Part shown: in pieces, positions 52,491 through 63,244 of the stretch
How the letters are laid out: each line of letters begins with the position of its first letter
How positions within the stretch are numbered: position 1 is the stretch's first letter
Assembly: GCA_030695565.1 (NCBI GenBank)
Contig: JAUYRZ010000090.1
Coordinates: forward strand, 1-64,000
Origin: Archangium sp.
GTDB lineage: Bacteria > Myxococcota > Myxococcia > Myxococcales > Myxococcaceae
DNA length: 64,000 nt
Direction: 5' to 3'
Position numbers and translations under genes: made by a program
Notes under the pieces: model-generated
The model's database searches: none
Seen by the model: the letters and a program-made list of their open reading frames with translations, nothing else
What the model was told of the DNA's origin: nothing

Positions 52491-53654
52491 TCAGTGTTCG
52501 CGCCCGTCCACCCGCTCGGCGAGGAGCAGCGGTGCGAGCCGCACGCCCGTCATCGCGAACCCCAGCATCCACGCCAGGGCCGAGAGCCACAGCCAGTGCT
52601 GGTAGAGCGCAGGGGCGAGCTGCGGCGCGATGATGCGCGCCCCGAAGGCCACCACCATCACCCACAACACCAGCCGGTCACGCCGCTCGAACGCCACCGG
52701 ACGGCCCGTGTGACCCAGGCCGATGCGCAGCAGCATCGCGGGGATGATCAACCCCATCGCGCCGAAGGTGAAGACGTGCAGGCCCATCGAGCCCACCCAC
52801 TGCGTGCCCGAAGCGTCGAGCGCCAGCTGCGCCGCGATGGAGAGCATGCCCAGGTACATCACCGCCAGATCGATGCGGCGAAACGCGCGGTGGGGACTCC
52901 ACGTGAAGAAGCGCACGACGATGAGCCCGGCCAACAACCATGCGGCACCTTGTCGCAACAGCGGCGGCATCCACGGCGCTCCGATGAGAACCAACGCCAG
53001 CCCCTTGATGGGGAAATCGATCGCCGCGCGTCGCGGCAAGGTGAGCTGAAACGCCGACTTCATGAACGGGGTGAGCGTGCGCTCCAGCATCACCAGGAAC
53101 GCCAGCCGGAAGATCGCCAGCGTGACGTCTCTGCCTTCGGCGAAATGCGCCGGATCCAACAGCAACGCGCGCGCGGCCAGGAACACCGGCAGCGCCACCA
53201 GGAACAGGAAGTTGTCCCGATAGCTGTCCTTCTTCCGGTACCGAAGGAGCGTCCACCAGATCGCGCCGACCAGGGAGAGGGTGAAGAGGTTGAGCGAGCT
53301 CAACCGCAGCCACGACGGCCAGCTGCCGCCCCACCACATGCCGGCGCGCTCGAACGCCCACGCCGCCACCAGGAACTGCAACGTGCGGCCGAAGTGACCC
53401 CGCACCGAGACCCAGTTCTTCGTGGCCGTCAGCAAGAAGCCGCCCAGCACCGCGAAGCCGAAGCCGAAGAACATCTCGTGCGCGTGCCAGGTCATCGGCG
53501 AGAGGCCCGCGGGCGGGGTGAGCTTGCCGGTCAACAACAGCACCCAGATCGGCGGGAGCACCACGGCAGCCGCGCTCGCGAGCAGAAAGAACGGCCGGAA
53601 GCCCACCAGCCACAGCGGGTGCCCGTGCCACGCGCGCGGCGTCTTTTCAGTCAT
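52491..53654 (-). CDS. nnrS: NnrS family NO-response membrane protein
   Basis: A 387-aa, ~12-helix membrane protein. The hallmark GFRPFFLLAS near the start, WHAHEMFFGFGFAVLGGFLLTATKNW, and HVFTFGAMGLIIPAMLLRIGLGHTGR match NnrS, a haem- and copper-containing protein induced by NO that protects metabolism from nitrosative stress. It ends the operon with the hemerythrin and 387-aa membrane genes (overlap 53651-53654). Confidence 0.93.
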   Translation of the reverse strand: MTEKTPRAWHGHPLWLVGFRPFFLLASAAAVVLPPIWVLLLTGKLTPPAGLSPMTWHAHEMFFGFGFAVLGGFLLTATKNWVSVRGHFGRTLQFLVAAWAFERAGMWWGGSWPSWLRLSSLNLFTLSLVGAIWWTLLRYRKKDSYRDNFLFLVALPVFLAARALLLDPAHFAEGRDVTLAIFRLAFLVMLERTLTPFMKSAFQLTLPRRAAIDFPIKGLALVLIGAPWMPPLLRQGAAWLLAGLIVVRFFTWSPHRAFRRIDLAVMYLGMLSIAAQLALDASGTQWVGSMGLHVFTFGAMGLIIPAMLLRIGLGHTGRPVAFERRDRLVLWVMVVAFGARIIAPQLAPALYQHWLWLSALAWMLGFAMTGVRLAPLLLAERVDGREH

Positions 53655-54217
53655 GCGGGCGTCCTTCGCCGAGCGCGGAGTTCCTGAATGATCACCTGCT
53701 GCGTCTCCGCCGGGAGCGCCTCGTCGAGAAAGGGAAAGAGCTCGAACTCCTCGAAGCGCAGGTGCTCTTCCAGGTCGGTCTCGAGCGTCGCCGCTTCGCG
53801 CGCCAACTGGCGGTGCAGCACCGCGTCGTTGGGCCGCTCGAGCACCGCGCGCAGGGCGTCTGCCACCGCGTGCAACCGCACCTCGTGCGTGAAGTGTTCG
53901 GCGCGCATGCGGCCCAGCGTGGCGTCGAGCGCGGCCGAGTGTCCCGCCATGCGAGGGGCGATGCTGTCTTCTTCGTCACGCACGTGCAGCGGGAGGGCTT
54001 CGCTGAAGTAGCGCAGACACTGGGTGGCGACCTCCTCCACCTCGGCCGCGGGCGTGGTTCGCTGCGCCCCCAGGGTGAACGCCAGCCGTGCGAAGCGGCG
54101 AATGCGCGCGTGGCAAGCAAGCAAGAGCTCCCGCAACGACTCGGGTCCGCCCACCGCTTGTCGGCTCGAGGAGTTCCCCAATCGCACCAGGCTCATCGAC
54201 GCACCGAACTTCTTCAT
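53651..54217 (-). CDS. Hemerythrin-like (HHE) domain protein
   Basis: A 188-aa protein. H/E ligand sets in PLHVRDEEDSIAPRM, EHFTHEVRLH and EEHLRFEEFELFPFLDEAL match the hemerythrin HHE fold, probably binding a di-iron centre. Next to nnrS, it likely handles NO or repairs nitrosylated Fe-S proteins, as in YtfE/DnrN-type proteins, but the domain is too divergent to assign exactly. ATG 54217 overlaps the upstream membrane gene stop (ATGA). Confidence 0.82.
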   Translation of the reverse strand: MKKFGASMSLVRLGNSSSRQAVGGPESLRELLLACHARIRRFARLAFTLGAQRTTPAAEVEEVATQCLRYFSEALPLHVRDEEDSIAPRMAGHSAALDATLGRMRAEHFTHEVRLHAVADALRAVLERPNDAVLHRQLAREAATLETDLEEHLRFEEFELFPFLDEALPAETQQVIIQELRARRRTPA

Positions 54218-55377
54218 GTGGCTTCCTTCAGGAGCGGAGCTCGATGCTTCGAGGTGATCAGAAAGCGCGCCGCCGCCCAGGCCTGGCCGACGACCACGCT
54301 GACGCCGCCCAGCGCTGCGAGCACCAGGCCGGATCTTCCGGGCCATGACGCCGCGACGCCCAGCCCCGAGAGCATCAAGCCGATGCCCAACTGGTGCAGC
54401 CACAACGCGCGCGCCGAGGGCCGCGGTGCGCGCAGCTCGATGAACAACAACAACGACGAGGTCACCACCCCGAGCGTCTGCAGGTGCACCACGAACACCA
54501 CCGCGTGCCGGTTCATCACCAACGCCTGCAACGCCCCGGTGGCCATCAGGGCGAAGAGCAACACGCCGACGCTCCAGGCGAGGGCCGCGCTGCGCCAGAG
54601 CCAGCGGTGAGCAGCGCCCGCGCTGGCGTGAAAGACCCACGCGCTCCACGCGGCCGCGGGTACCAGGAGCACCACCGCCGAAAAGCGGGCGAGCGCAACG
54701 AGGGGGCTGCCTTCGAGCCCGGGCACGGTGAGCACCGAAGGCCACATCAACAGCGGCGCGCCGACGCCCAGCACCACCCCGAGCCGCCTGCCCGGAGGTT
54801 TCCCCAACGCGCGCACCGTCAGGCCCATCACGCCCATGACGAAGAATGCCCCGAAGGCGCCCAGAAAGAGATGCACCGCCAACGCCGAAAGCACGGGATC
54901 GTCGTGGTGCAGCACCTTGAGCACCACCCGGCTCAACGCGCAGACGTAGGCGATCACCACGAAGACCGCCGCGGCGCGAAGGAAGGCGAGGTCTGCACCG
55001 CGCATCCGGTGAGCGGCTTTGAAGAAGATCACCACCGCCGCGAAGAAGGGCACCAGGGTGAGCGCCGAGAGCACCACGCCCGGCCGGCCGTAGCCGGAGT
55101 GCAGGAACACCCCGAAGGTGGCCAGGCCCTGCGCCGCCAACGCGCCCAGCACCCAGCGCGCGCTCCGGCCGGTGGCCCCGACCCGTTCGAAGAAGAGGGT
55201 GAACAAGGCGAGCCCTGCCCACCCCCAATAGAGCGTGTGGGAGTGCGCGTGCGTGGCGTGGCTCACGTTCACGTCGACCGGCGTGACCTGACCCAGGCGC
55301 AGGGCCGCTCCCAGGCTCACCCCCAGGAGCAACAGGCCGAAGGCGGCAGCGAGCGCGCGGTTCACGGACTGACTCAT
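54214..55377 (-). CDS. Unrecognised polytopic membrane protein, His-rich (NO-metabolism operon)
   Basis: A 387-aa protein with about 11-12 membrane helices. It carries helix-associated His clusters: S-H-A-T-H-A-H-S-H-T-L-Y-W-G-W in an early loop/helix, LHHDDPVLSALAVHLF, and VVFVVHLQTLGVV, suggestive of haem or copper ligation like NnrS or degraded haem-copper oxidase subunit I. I do not recognise the family. It heads the operon with hemerythrin and nnrS and is divergent from nirK, so an NO- or denitrification-linked role is inferred. Confidence 0.75.
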   Translation of the reverse strand: MSQSVNRALAAAFGLLLLGVSLGAALRLGQVTPVDVNVSHATHAHSHTLYWGWAGLALFTLFFERVGATGRSARWVLGALAAQGLATFGVFLHSGYGRPGVVLSALTLVPFFAAVVIFFKAAHRMRGADLAFLRAAAVFVVIAYVCALSRVVLKVLHHDDPVLSALAVHLFLGAFGAFFVMGVMGLTVRALGKPPGRRLGVVLGVGAPLLMWPSVLTVPGLEGSPLVALARFSAVVLLVPAAAWSAWVFHASAGAAHRWLWRSAALAWSVGVLLFALMATGALQALVMNRHAVVFVVHLQTLGVVTSSLLLFIELRAPRPSARALWLHQLGIGLMLSGLGVAASWPGRSGLVLAALGGVSVVVGQAWAAARFLITSKHRAPLLKEAT

Positions 55378-55501: not shown

Positions 55502-55560
55502 GAGTTGGTCTTCGCCTTGCAGCTCCGTCTCACAGTTCACTTTTCATCGGGGAGTCACAC

Positions 55561-56973
55561 ATGCAGATCGCCATGTTGAGCGCCGTGTTGTTGGGGTTGG
55601 GCTCCGCGTTGCCGGAGGAGAAGGCGGTGCTGACCGAGCCGCCCACGGTGCCCCCGCCGATCACCCGCACCACCCCTGCCAGGGTGAAGGTGGAGTTGGA
55701 GGTGGTGGAGAAGGTGATGCAGATGGCGGACGGCGTCGACTACACCTTCTGGACGTTCGGCGGCACCGTGCCCGGCCGCTTCATCCGCGTGCGTGAAGGC
55801 GACACGGTGGAGTTCTGGCTGGCCAATCACCCGAACAACAAGCTGCCCCACAACATCGACCTGCACGCGGTGACCGGCCCGGGTGGCGGCGCGGCGAGCA
55901 CCTTCACGGCGCCCGGCCACAAGAGCCGCTTCACCTTTCAGACGCTCAACCCCGGTCTGTACGTCTACCACTGCGCCACCGCGCCGGTCGGCATGCACAT
56001 CGCCAACGGCATGTACGGCCTCATCTACGTGCAGCCGAAGAAGGCGCTGCCGAAGGTCGACCGCGAGTACTACGTGATGCAGGGCGACTTCTATACGGAC
56101 GCCGATTTCGGAGCGAAGGGGCTGCAGCCCTTCTCGATGAAGCGGGCGATCGACGAACGCCCTTCGTACGTGGTGTTCAACGGCAGCGCGCTCTCGCTGG
56201 TCGGAGACCGCGCGCTCAAGGGCAAGGTCGGCGAGACCGTGCGCCTGTTCATGGGCAACGGCGGCCCCAACCTGGTCTCCAGCTTCCACGTGATCGGGGA
56301 GATCTTCGACAAGGTCTACACGGAGGGTGGTTCGACCGCGCAGCAGAACGTGCAGACCACCCTCGTGCCCGCGGGCGGCAGCGCCATCGTGGAGTTCAAG
56401 CTCGACACCGACGGCACGTACATCCTGGTCGACCACTCCATCTTCCGCGCGTTCAACAAGGGCGCGCTGGGCATGATGAAGGTGGAAGGCACGGGCAACA
56501 AAGACCTCTATTCCGGCAAGCAGGTCGACGAGATGTACCTGGGTGACGAGTCGGTCGCCTCTTCGATCACCGCGAGGGCCACCGGCCCGGTCGAGGTCGC
56601 GGCCGCGGTCGATGGCAAGGCGCTCTTCACGGCGAACTGCGCCATGTGCCATCAGCCCGAAGGCCAGGGCATTCCCCCGGCCTTCCCTCCGCTCGCCAAG
56701 AGCGACTACCTGAAGACCATCTCCAATACGAAGCGCAACGAGCTGGTGGAGCTGGTGCTGCGCGGCAAGACGGGGCAAATCACCGTCAACGGCATCGAAT
56801 ACAACGGCGTGATGACGGCGGTGGCCGGCCTCGACGACGTGAAGCTGGCCGCGGTGCTCAACTACGTGAGCAACACCTGGGGCAACCAGGCCAGGCCCTT
56901 CACCACCGACGAAGTGAAGAAGCTGCGCGAGGCCCTGCCCGCGACGCCGTCGTCCGCGGGCGGTCACGAGTAA
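55561..56973 (+). CDS. nirK: Copper nitrite reductase NirK fused to cytochrome c
   Basis: A 470-aa periplasmic enzyme, starting with a signal peptide. Type 1 copper ligands H97, C138, H146, M151 and type 2 ligands H102, H137 and a C-terminal H292 are all present; catalytic residues D100 and H243-V-I245 match the known enzyme. A C-terminal cytochrome c domain has CAMCH (360-364). This three-domain form reduces nitrite to NO using its own haem as electron donor. GGGAG precedes the ATG. nirV follows 3 bp later. Confidence 0.95.
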
Positions 56974-58319: not shown

Positions 58320-58922
58320 CTAGCCCGCGAGTACCTGCAAGCCCGCCGCATCGAGAATGCGCACCTCGCCGCCCGCAGAAATCAAACCCTCCGCCTCCAG
58401 ACCGCGCAGGCACCGCGACATCGTCTCGGGGCGAATGCCCAACAACCCAGCGGCGTGCCGCTTCGAAAACGCGCCCAGCCCACCGCTGAGCAAGATGAAT
58501 CGAGCCACCCGCGAAGCGGCCGACCCACTGCGCAGCTCGCCATCTCGCTCGACCCGCAACAGCTCATCGAGCGTCAACTGCCACAACGTTCGGGGATCGG
58601 CCGCCTGAAGCACCGTCGACGGTGACGCGCTGCAGACCACCGCATCCGTCAGCGCCTCCACCGACGCGCGCGCGGCCTGCCGGCGCAGGGCCTCTGCACC
58701 CAGGAGCGATCGGGGGCCCCTCACCGAAGTGGCCACCTCGTCACCATCGGGAGCGATCGTGCGCCTCGCCAGGACGCCCCGCTTCACGAAGAGCACCTCG
58801 GCCGGCACCTCACCCTGAGGCCACAACACGCTGCCCGCAGCCACCTTGCGCGGCACGAACGCACACGGTCCCTGAGCACCGAGAGGACACGCTTCACACG
58901 AGGTGACCGGCGCGTCGATCAT
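58320..58922 (-). CDS. Crp/FNR-family regulator with candidate Fe-S cysteines
   Basis: A 200-aa regulator. N-terminal C9-x2-C12-x7-C20 and an internal C97 recall the FNR [4Fe-4S] ligands (C-x2-C-x5-C plus a central Cys). The body has the cyclic-nucleotide-binding beta roll, and a C-terminal HTH (FSKRHAAGLLGIRPETMSRCLRGL). It would sense O2 or NO and likely controls the nir, nor and nnrS genes. It overlaps the porin stop by one base (TGATG), so it is downstream in the same transcript. Confidence 0.87.
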   Translation of the reverse strand: MIDAPVTSCEACPLGAQGPCAFVPRKVAAGSVLWPQGEVPAEVLFVKRGVLARRTIAPDGDEVATSVRGPRSLLGAEALRRQAARASVEALTDAVVCSASPSTVLQAADPRTLWQLTLDELLRVERDGELRSGSAASRVARFILLSGGLGAFSKRHAAGLLGIRPETMSRCLRGLEAEGLISAGGEVRILDAAGLQVLAG

Positions 58923-60475: not shown

Positions 60476-62455
60476 TCAACCACGCAGCGCGGTGCTGGTC
60501 ACGGTGGCCAGCACCCTCACCAACTCCTCTGGCTTGCTGACCACCGAGGCCCGCCCCGCCCCGAACATCGATGGCAACCAGGCCTTCGCCGCGGGGTCGA
60601 CCGCCAGGGCGTGCATCACCACCCCGCTCGCTTGCGCGTCGATCACCGCGCGGTGCACGTCAGCCACGCCGTACCGGCCTTCGTAGCGATCGAGATCGCT
60701 GGGTTTGCCGTCGCTCACCAGCAGCAGCAGCCGCTTGCGAGCACCACACTCGAGCAACAACCGCGTGGCGTGGCGGAGCGCCGGGCCGATGCGGGTGAAG
60801 CCGCCGGGCGAGAGGCTCATCACCCGGCGTGCACCGGCAGCCCACGGCTCGTCGAAACGTTTGGCGAGCAAGAACCGGCAGTCGCGCCGGGTCTGGCTGC
60901 AGAACGCGGCGACCGAGACCTCGTCGAACAGGCCATCGAGGGCATCACCCAGGGCGATCACCGCCTCCTTCTCGACGTCCATCACGCGGCGGTTGGCCAC
61001 CCACGCGTCGGTCGAGAGGCTGGCGTCGAGCAACACCAGCACCGCGGTGTCTCTCGTATGACGGCGCCTGGCCGCATAGAGGCGGCTCTGGTTGCACTGG
61101 CCCGCACGCAGCGCGCCGTACCGGGCCACCAACGCGTCGATGTCGACGTCGGGACCGCTGACCTGCCGCAGACGCCACGAACGCGCGGCCTCGAGCTGCT
61201 CGAAGACGGCGCGCAACCCGGTGGTGGTGCGCACCAGGCGGCCCCGCACCGTGCGCAACGCTTCGTCGGCGTCCTCCGCGATCTCCACCTGACGCGTGGT
61301 GAGGCGGCACCAATCGCGGCGCCACTGGTGACGGGCTTCATCCCACTCGTCGTAGGTGGCCTCGGCCGGGCCGGTGCTCTCGTCTTCGAGATCGCCCACC
61401 GCGCCATCGATCAACACGTCGGCGCGATAGAGGCTGCGGGCGCGCTGGTGGCTGCGCACCAGCTGCTTCAAGTCGAGTTCGTCGAGCGCCTTCTGATGCG
61501 CGGCCAGCTCGTCGTCGCCGTCGACGCGTTTGCTGCCGCCCTTGTACGTCTCGAGCGTGTGCACCTTCTCGAAGCTGTGCACGAGCGGGTTCTCGGCGAG
61601 CTCGTTGTTCGGTTCATCGATGCGCTGGGGCTGGGTGACCACCCGCTTCTGCACCTCGGTGCCGCCGGGCAACGACGACGCATCGGCCTGCTGCTTCGGA
61701 GCAGGCACCGTGAACGCCCTCGCCATCGGGGGCATCAACTCACCCCACAGCGGCACCGCGGGATCGCTGGGGCCTGCGCGCAACCAACGCCGCGTCGCCG
61801 CAGGCAGCGGAGGCAGTCTTCGCAGCACTTCTTTCAGCACCACGGGACCCGGGGGCACGCAGGCCAACGCGGCTTCGGCCCACGCCCACGCTGCGGCGGA
61901 GAGCTCACCCTTCAAGGTGGAAGGCCAGCGGTCTGCACCCAGGGTCAACCGCACGAACGCCTCCACGGCCTGGGCGCGTGCGTCGGAGATCGGCGGCGTG
62001 GGGCGCGCTTCGATCATCGCGCGCTCGAGCCGAGGCAGCAGCCCGGCCAACATCGGCGCGTCCTCCAGCAGCCGGTGCCTCGTGGTGGGCGCTGCGAGGG
62101 CAGTGACGAGCAACAGCTCTGCGCCGGAGAGCCCCGCGGGCCGGGTGAAGTCGAGCGCGCGCGAACTGCAGGTCCACACCAGGCGCACCAACACCGCGGC
62201 GAGGTTGAGCTCGCGGGTGGGCGCAAAGTCGAAGTGTTTCGGCAGGTACAACACATCACCGCGATGGCCACCCGCCTCTTCGCTCGTGGTCACCGTCACC
62301 GGGGCCGAGGTGAGCAGCCGCGCGAGCACCTCGAGCCGCGCGCGTTCGGGTTCGACCTCGACCCGTCTCGTGAGCACCTCTTGCGACGCGCGCGGCGAGA
62401 ACCAACGTCGCGCGCTGTCGAAGGCGGCCCCGAAGAGCGCTTCATCCCATGCCAT
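60476..62455 (-). CDS. norD: NorD (nitric oxide reductase activation, VWA domain)
   Basis: A 659-aa protein. The C-terminal third has a von Willebrand A domain with MIDAS motif DASLS (in VLLDASLSTDAW), plus SPGGFTRIGPALRHA and LLLLVSDGKPSD. The N-terminal two-thirds is the NorD-specific region. NorD with NorQ forms an AAA+/VWA pair needed to insert non-haem iron and activate NorBC. It is 18 bp downstream of norQ. Confidence 0.92.
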   Translation of the reverse strand: MAWDEALFGAAFDSARRWFSPRASQEVLTRRVEVEPERARLEVLARLLTSAPVTVTTSEEAGGHRGDVLYLPKHFDFAPTRELNLAAVLVRLVWTCSSRALDFTRPAGLSGAELLLVTALAAPTTRHRLLEDAPMLAGLLPRLERAMIEARPTPPISDARAQAVEAFVRLTLGADRWPSTLKGELSAAAWAWAEAALACVPPGPVVLKEVLRRLPPLPAATRRWLRAGPSDPAVPLWGELMPPMARAFTVPAPKQQADASSLPGGTEVQKRVVTQPQRIDEPNNELAENPLVHSFEKVHTLETYKGGSKRVDGDDELAAHQKALDELDLKQLVRSHQRARSLYRADVLIDGAVGDLEDESTGPAEATYDEWDEARHQWRRDWCRLTTRQVEIAEDADEALRTVRGRLVRTTTGLRAVFEQLEAARSWRLRQVSGPDVDIDALVARYGALRAGQCNQSRLYAARRRHTRDTAVLVLLDASLSTDAWVANRRVMDVEKEAVIALGDALDGLFDEVSVAAFCSQTRRDCRFLLAKRFDEPWAAGARRVMSLSPGGFTRIGPALRHATRLLLECGARKRLLLLVSDGKPSDLDRYEGRYGVADVHRAVIDAQASGVVMHALAVDPAAKAWLPSMFGAGRASVVSKPEELVRVLATVTSTALRG

Positions 62456-62473: not shown

Positions 62474-63244
62474 TCAGAACGAGAGATCGACCAGATCCTG
62501 CAGTGCTCTGGCGGTGGGCGGATCGTCGGTGAGCGGTTGCACCAGCGTCACCTGGCAGGCCACCCGCGGCGCGAGCCCCGAGGCCATCAGGCGCGCGGCC
62601 ATCACCAACAACCGGGTGGACACCGTCTCTGCCAGACCCAGCGCGTCTTGTGAGCGCACCTTCTTCGCCCACGCCACCAGCCGCCGCGCCTGCTTCGAGT
62701 CGATGCCCGTCTCGCCTGCGAGCACCTCGGCCTCCGCGTCTTCGGGCGGGTAGTCGAAGTGCAACGAGACGAAACGTTGGCGGGTGGAGGGCTTGAGCTC
62801 CTTGAGGCCGCGCCGGTAGCCGGGGTTGAAGCTCGCCACCACCATGAACCCGGGCGGAGCGGTGAGCACCTCGTCGTTGCGATCGACGAAGAGCTGCCGG
62901 CGGTGATCCGTCAGCGGGTGGAGCAGCACCACCACGTCCTCCCGCGCCTCGGCCACTTCATCGAGATAGAGAATGCCGCCCTGCCGCACCGCGCGTGTGG
63001 CCGGGCCGTCTTGCCAGAGGGTGTCACCACCGCGCACCAACCAGCGTCCGACCAGATCGGCCGCGCTCGTCTCGTCGTTGCAGGCCACGGTGATCAGCGG
63101 GCGTTGCAGCCGCTCGGCCATGAACTCCACGAAACGCGACTTGCCACAGCCCGTGGGCCCCTTGAGCAACACGGGCAAGCGCTGCGCGTGGGCCCGCTCG
63201 AAGACGGTGACTTCGTCTCCGATGGGCCGATACCAGCTCGTCAT
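62474..63244 (-). CDS. norQ: NorQ (MoxR-type AAA+ ATPase for NO reductase activation)
   Basis: A 256-aa AAA+ protein. Walker A GPTGCGKS (29-36), Walker B GILYLDEVAEA, and GFMVVASFNPGY (sensor 1) are intact; the body matches the CbbQ/NirQ/NorQ group. With NorD it activates nitric oxide reductase. It starts 4 bp after the norB stop, with GAGGGG upstream, so the operon is norB-norQ-norD. Confidence 0.93.
   Translation of the reverse strand: MTSWYRPIGDEVTVFERAHAQRLPVLLKGPTGCGKSRFVEFMAERLQRPLITVACNDETSAADLVGRWLVRGGDTLWQDGPATRAVRQGGILYLDEVAEAREDVVVLLHPLTDHRRQLFVDRNDEVLTAPPGFMVVASFNPGYRRGLKELKPSTRQRFVSLHFDYPPEDAEAEVLAGETGIDSKQARRLVAWAKKVRSQDALGLAETVSTRLLVMAARLMASGLAPRVACQVTLVQPLTDDPPTARALQDLVDLSF

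Follow-up and report, generated by a model that had tools for sequence, protein, structure and literature searches.

A solitary membrane protein with a haem-copper oxidase fold and a predicted single haem b site, encoded among denitrification genes in Archangium

We analysed a 64,000-nucleotide stretch of DNA from Archangium sp. (contig JAUYRZ010000090.1, positions 1 to 64,000; hereafter "the window"), in which an operon for a histidine-rich membrane protein lies beside genes of nitric oxide (NO) metabolism. We name the gene and its product for the haem-copper oxidase (HCO) fold predicted for the protein. The genes that define the locus are:

52491..53654, minus strand: nnrS (PF05940, E 3e-70)
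53651..54217, minus strand: gene for a hemerythrin-domain protein (PF01814, E 1.1e-12)
54214..55377, minus strand: HCO-fold gene (387 aa), the subject of this study, recognised from its open reading frame, homologs and predicted fold
55561..56973, plus strand: nirK with a C-terminal cytochrome c domain (TIGR02376, 357.6 bits; Cytochrom_C, residues 350-440)
60476..62455, minus strand: norD-like (VWA) gene of a neighbouring NO reductase cluster, adjoining norQ (PF00092, E 2.2e-6)
62474..63244, minus strand: norQ (CbbQ/NirQ/NorQ ATPase; PF08406)

The HCO-fold open reading frame runs on the minus strand from an ATG at 55377 to a stop at 54214, with a ribosome-site-like GGGGAG just 5' of the ATG. 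It overlaps the hemerythrin gene by 4 bp (ATGA), and the hemerythrin gene overlaps nnrS by the same 4-bp ATGA; coordinates and Pfam matches thus confirm the original prediction that the HCO-fold gene comes first in an operon with hemerythrin and nnrS. The hemerythrin-domain protein scores below the RIC/YtfE cut-off. The nirK gene is divergent from the HCO-fold gene, starting 183 bp away on the opposite strand, and norB and norC adjoin norQ across and beyond the window end, as read across the window and L020.

Several further features lie close to these genes. On the 3' side of nirK are FGE-sulfatase-like and SCO1-like genes, an arrangement also found in the sister species G009 and G011 and in G046. 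Upstream of nirK, at 55505-55521 on the plus strand, is a sigma-54-like -24/-12 element, TTGGTCTTCGCCTTGCA, which is weak on its own given two matches in the window against 0.57 expected by chance. A gene at 58320-58922 (minus strand), with the nirK operon on one side and the porin/nor genes on the other, encodes a CRP/FNR-type protein, a candidate for regulating the cluster in response to NO or oxygen.

The HCO-fold protein matched no Pfam or NCBIfam model. A homolog in a sister species is 65-67% identical, and comparison with a sister species gives a dN of 0.28 against a dS of 0.85, indicating selection at the protein level; on this sequence evidence, 54214-55377 encodes a real protein. We found about 10 carriers among about 195 Myxococcota genomes searched and 6 carriers among 154 genomes of one Bacillota class, and no relative in the plasmids or viral contigs searched. 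In a scan of genome contigs for close relatives, the single protein as query recovered no loci and the alignment recovered 8. The family alignment holds 16 members (10 Myxococcota and 6 Bacillota), two of which (L012 and L017) are cut by contig ends. Two matches covering 64-69 residues, one a second match in the Archangium genome itself (L002, E 0.016) and the other in G045 (L010, E 1e-4), were left out. Within the family, H43-A-H45-S-H47, Y50, G52, W53, F91, G95, Y96, R290 and H298 are invariant or nearly so. Genome G111, which also has two ccoN-like genes, encodes a more distant Myxococcota protein (L040) with the stretch HAHSHMGYFG, a hint that the HAHSH proteins may form a larger superfamily. 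Literature searches, incomplete in coverage with most subscription papers outside it, returned no description of such a family; within that coverage, HCO-fold proteins that keep the low-spin site alone and lack a dedicated family model appear to be undescribed.

Built from nine input sequences, the AlphaFold2 model of the HCO-fold protein (pLDDT 89.5, pTM 0.90) contains 12 helices, in agreement with the roughly 12 originally predicted. A Foldseek search of the PDB returned HCO subunit I structures in all of the first 28 places, with the cbb3 oxidase subunit CcoN at the top (E 1e-8). VIA-align superposed the model on CcoN (3mk7_D) with a Z-score of 38.5 and a deviation of 2.4 Å over 374 residues, and on NorB with Z-scores of 33-35. 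As a multi-helix membrane protein without a family match, the HCO-fold protein might instead be an unrelated transporter or permease. This is extremely improbable given the fold and ligand evidence for an HCO: PDB transporters rank far lower (E > 0.1, starting at E 0.19), and the transporter match that would have told against the original prediction was found neither in Pfam or NCBIfam nor in the structure searches.

Sequence profiles point the same way. Profile-profile comparison of the family with CcoN gave a P value of 1.2e-4 over 373 columns, significant only after more Bacillota members were added (P 0.007-0.04 with shallow alignments), and a score of 42.3, compared with at most 23.8 for 60 block-shuffled controls and 13.3 for a reversed profile. 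The distant Bacillota member L115, found with a Myxococcota-only profile at 95.6 bits, matches Pfam COX1 (PF00115) over its full length at 69.3 bits (E = 3.9e-19), above the curated cut-off, whereas the HCO-fold protein itself and most family members fall below the gathering cut-off of this model. Searching PDB sequences with profiles yielded nothing relevant. One homolog's match to the NCBIfam cbb3 subunit I model (E 0.009) was set aside, as its helix II pairs with the helix X region of the profile. Overall, the predicted structure and the profiles make membership of the HCO-superfamily fold solid, with CcoN the best match.

Compared with CcoN (PDB 3mk7 and 8smr), the HCO-fold protein has the same 12-helix fold over its whole length and both low-spin haem b ligands, but it is only ~15% identical, is shorter (387 vs ~465 aa), lacks the haem b3 ligand and a complete CuB site, and has no ccoO or ccoP genes adjoining its own. 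The codons of the key positions are:

55237..55251, minus strand: H43-A-H45-S-H47, where helix II begins on the periplasmic side, kept in 15 of 15 members that cover the site
54505..54507, minus strand: H291, where helix X begins on the periplasmic side, beside the nearly invariant R290, His in most Myxococcota members
54490..54492, minus strand: V296, in the place of the proximal His of haem b3, where the family alignment indicates loss of the ligand
54484..54486, minus strand: H298, in helix X, aligned with the other of the two low-spin haem b ligands in CcoN, kept in 15 of 15 covering members

In each of three alignment modes, H45 in helix II and H298 in helix X take the positions of the CcoN low-spin haem b ligands. 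Against NorB, the helix X match is unchanged and the helix II register is one residue off, so the actual ligand there could be H43 or H47; we infer the ligand geometry from the sequence register together with the fold. Counting positive charges (16 K/R inside vs 4 outside) predicts an N-in topology, which would place the conserved histidines on the periplasmic side. The protein has 15 histidines in its 387 residues, among which the original prediction had recognised three helix-associated clusters. Two of these hold: TM2 begins with H43/H45/H47 and TM10 contains H291/H298, and both clusters are helical and conserved, but H157/H158 lie in the TM5-TM6 loop and vary among members. H93, H123, H169, H250, H257 and H378 are likewise not conserved as His in the family. 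The key histidines are kept among homologs; their variation would have told against the original prediction.

The ligands of the binuclear centre are missing, with the haem b3 and helix VII CuB positions placed alike by all three alignment modes. At the haem b3 position the protein has V296 and the family has V, L, F, Y or D, never His; the helix VII CuB positions are L216/T217 here and His in no member; and the helix VI CuB position is G173 here, His in seven relatives, and G, T, Q, E or F in the others. Because the haem b3 and CuB ligands are missing, the sequence excludes a catalytic reading, and the HCO-fold protein cannot be an oxidase or an NO reductase of the classical kind. NorB and qNOR (PDB 3o0r, 4xyd and 8zgp) have the fold in common with it, the helix X His falls on their low-spin haem ligand, and their genes are neighbours of HCO-fold genes in several genomes, but the HCO-fold protein is without their binuclear centre ligands and so is not an NO reductase of the NorB/qNOR type. 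It is also very improbable that the operon is headed by a new type of haem-copper NO or O2 reductase that reduces NO itself. The subunit I fold, the denitrification neighbourhood and the helix VI His retained in some relatives would fit such an enzyme; the substituted haem b3 proximal His, the absence of both helix VII CuB histidines from all members and the presence of NorCB with NorQD next door argue against it.

We examined the genomic context of the family. In four genomes, the HCO-fold gene lies within ~2 kb of nirK, qNOR or nos genes, and the arrangements differ. The sister species G008 has the order nirK, porin-like gene, HCO-fold gene and hemerythrin; in G079, the HCO-fold gene lies between a divergent qNOR gene and a cytochrome c-nosZ-nosD-ABC operon; and in G001, the HCO-fold gene has nnrS/hemN/hemerythrin on one side and qNOR/hemerythrin on the other, together with genes for CBS proteins. 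No NO gene lies near the HCO-fold gene in the carriers G067, G056, G046, G161 and L026. Across a sample of 189 Myxococcota genomes (9 carriers and 180 others), and with P values that ignore shared ancestry, nnrS occurs in 8/9 carriers vs 36/180 others (P 4e-5), nirK in 5/9 vs 13/180 (P 4e-4) and nosZ in 6/9 vs 31/180 (P 2e-3), with a weak association for qNOR (4/9 vs 35/180, P 0.09). The HCO-fold gene thus tracks nnrS, nirK and nosZ in this sample; co-occurrence with nirK was a check suggested with the original prediction.

Two sister species, G009 and G011, have nirK, nor and nnrS without the HCO-fold gene, which is thus not obligatory. Where the window has the HCO-fold gene, hemerythrin and nnrS, these genomes have norE, norF and nnrS:

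L107:2719-3497, minus strand: norE (COX3) and norF-like (COX4_pro) genes before nnrS in G011
L110:171-946, plus strand: norE (COX3) and norF-like (COX4_pro) genes before nnrS in G009

This dispensability would suit an assembly or stability factor that delivers haem or copper to NirK, NOR or NOS and is not itself a redox protein, as would the SCO1-like and NorQD assembly genes close by and the conserved HAHSH patch, which could bind copper. We consider such a role quite unlikely, since H45 and H298 sit exactly at the low-spin haem ligand sites and a copper chaperone would need neither.

The Bacillota copies often occur with peroxiredoxin and thioredoxin-like genes. In three Bacillota genomes, an AhpC-like peroxiredoxin, a thioredoxin-like protein and a ~141-aa membrane protein without an assigned family precede the homolog in a conserved order, in clusters at:

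L030:6210-7775
L117:6793-8367
L118:9022-10631

These peroxiredoxin neighbours, along with the carriers without a nearby NO gene, indicate that the link to NO may not be universal. They would also be expected if the HCO-fold protein were a general redox protein with no tie to NO, set only incidentally in the denitrification neighbourhood of Myxococcaceae. We find this doubtful in view of the co-occurrence with nnrS, nirK and nosZ and the close linkage in four genomes with differing arrangements; moreover, one Bacillota copy lies beside a NarK-type transporter gene and one within ~8 kb of napA-/nrfH-like genes.

NnrS (PF05940), the operon partner of the HCO-fold protein, is likewise a multi-helix protein. 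It has been described as a hypothetical haem-copper membrane protein (PMC1274295), and work summarised in PMC5710167 suggests protection against iron-NO complexes, or NO sensing. In a global alignment, H45, H47 and H281 of NnrS (L055 numbering) fall exactly on H45, H47 and H298 of the HCO-fold protein, and H45 and H281 are the only histidines invariant across a divergent NnrS set. Against these likenesses, PF05940 is matched by none of the 16 family members even at E 10, the profile score of the family with NnrS is marginal (23.2 vs a shuffled maximum of 20.7) and not significant, and the NnrS GHTG motif is absent, its histidine having no counterpart. Direct profile comparison of NnrS with CcoN gave no support, and an AlphaFold2 model of NnrS from two input sequences only (pLDDT 49) was too poor for fold comparison. 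The alignment suggestively points to a common origin of the two families, which we treat as a lead and not a result. That the HCO-fold protein is a divergent NnrS-like protein with the same fold and haem site, shielding iron centres from NO or sensing NO instead of supplying reductases with electrons, has a modest chance of being correct: the operon in common with nnrS and hemerythrin, the presence of nnrS in nearly all carriers and the aligned histidines favour it, and the profile, family-model and GHTG comparisons above do not. Genome G046 encodes, near nirK and downstream of a ScdA-N/hemerythrin (RIC-like) gene, another multi-helix protein without a Pfam match (P0004; L109:6929-8047, plus strand), whose HGPLMVSGF and LHALFVGFVFSMIFGHAP stretches are reminiscent of NnrS.

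Overall, we consider it probable that the Archangium protein is a solitary HCO-fold protein with only a low-spin haem b site, a b-type cytochrome that would assist denitrification either by passing on electrons or by binding or sensing NO. The original idea of a new membrane metalloprotein resembling HCOs and NnrS is in this respect upheld by the fold, the conserved histidines and the genomic context, though not in any catalytic sense. The predicted haem b would be held by bis-histidine ligation through H45 and H298 near the periplasmic face, with H43, H47, H291 and R290 surrounding the site. One low-spin haem lying close to the periplasmic face allows neither O2 or NO reduction of the binuclear type nor, alone, electron transport through the membrane, so the HCO-fold protein would be expected to perform neither. 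As an electron carrier, it would connect quinol to carriers or reductases in the periplasm; its partner in the window may be the NirK-cytochrome c fusion, and in another genome the cytochrome c encoded next to nosZ. Alternatively, it may bind or sense NO, as has been suggested for NnrS. We prefer electron transfer over NO handling only slightly, and we infer both haem binding and function.

The binuclear centre defines haem-copper oxidases and NO reductases, enzymes at the heart of respiration. A conserved family that spans two phyla, occurs in denitrification operons and has the fold and low-spin haem site without this centre would extend the HCO superfamily by a non-catalytic branch. The HCO-fold protein may also serve as a structural model for NnrS, predicting that the haem of NnrS is bound by the corresponding histidines of helices II and X. 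We tentatively raise the broader idea, itself unlikely at present, that this family and NnrS belong to a whole class of solitary HCO-fold proteins with a single haem, which serves NO metabolism without a binuclear centre, its members being either degenerate oxidases or survivors of a single-haem ancestor of oxidases and NO reductases. For the Myxococcota, the finding would account for a recurring unannotated gene among their denitrifying members.
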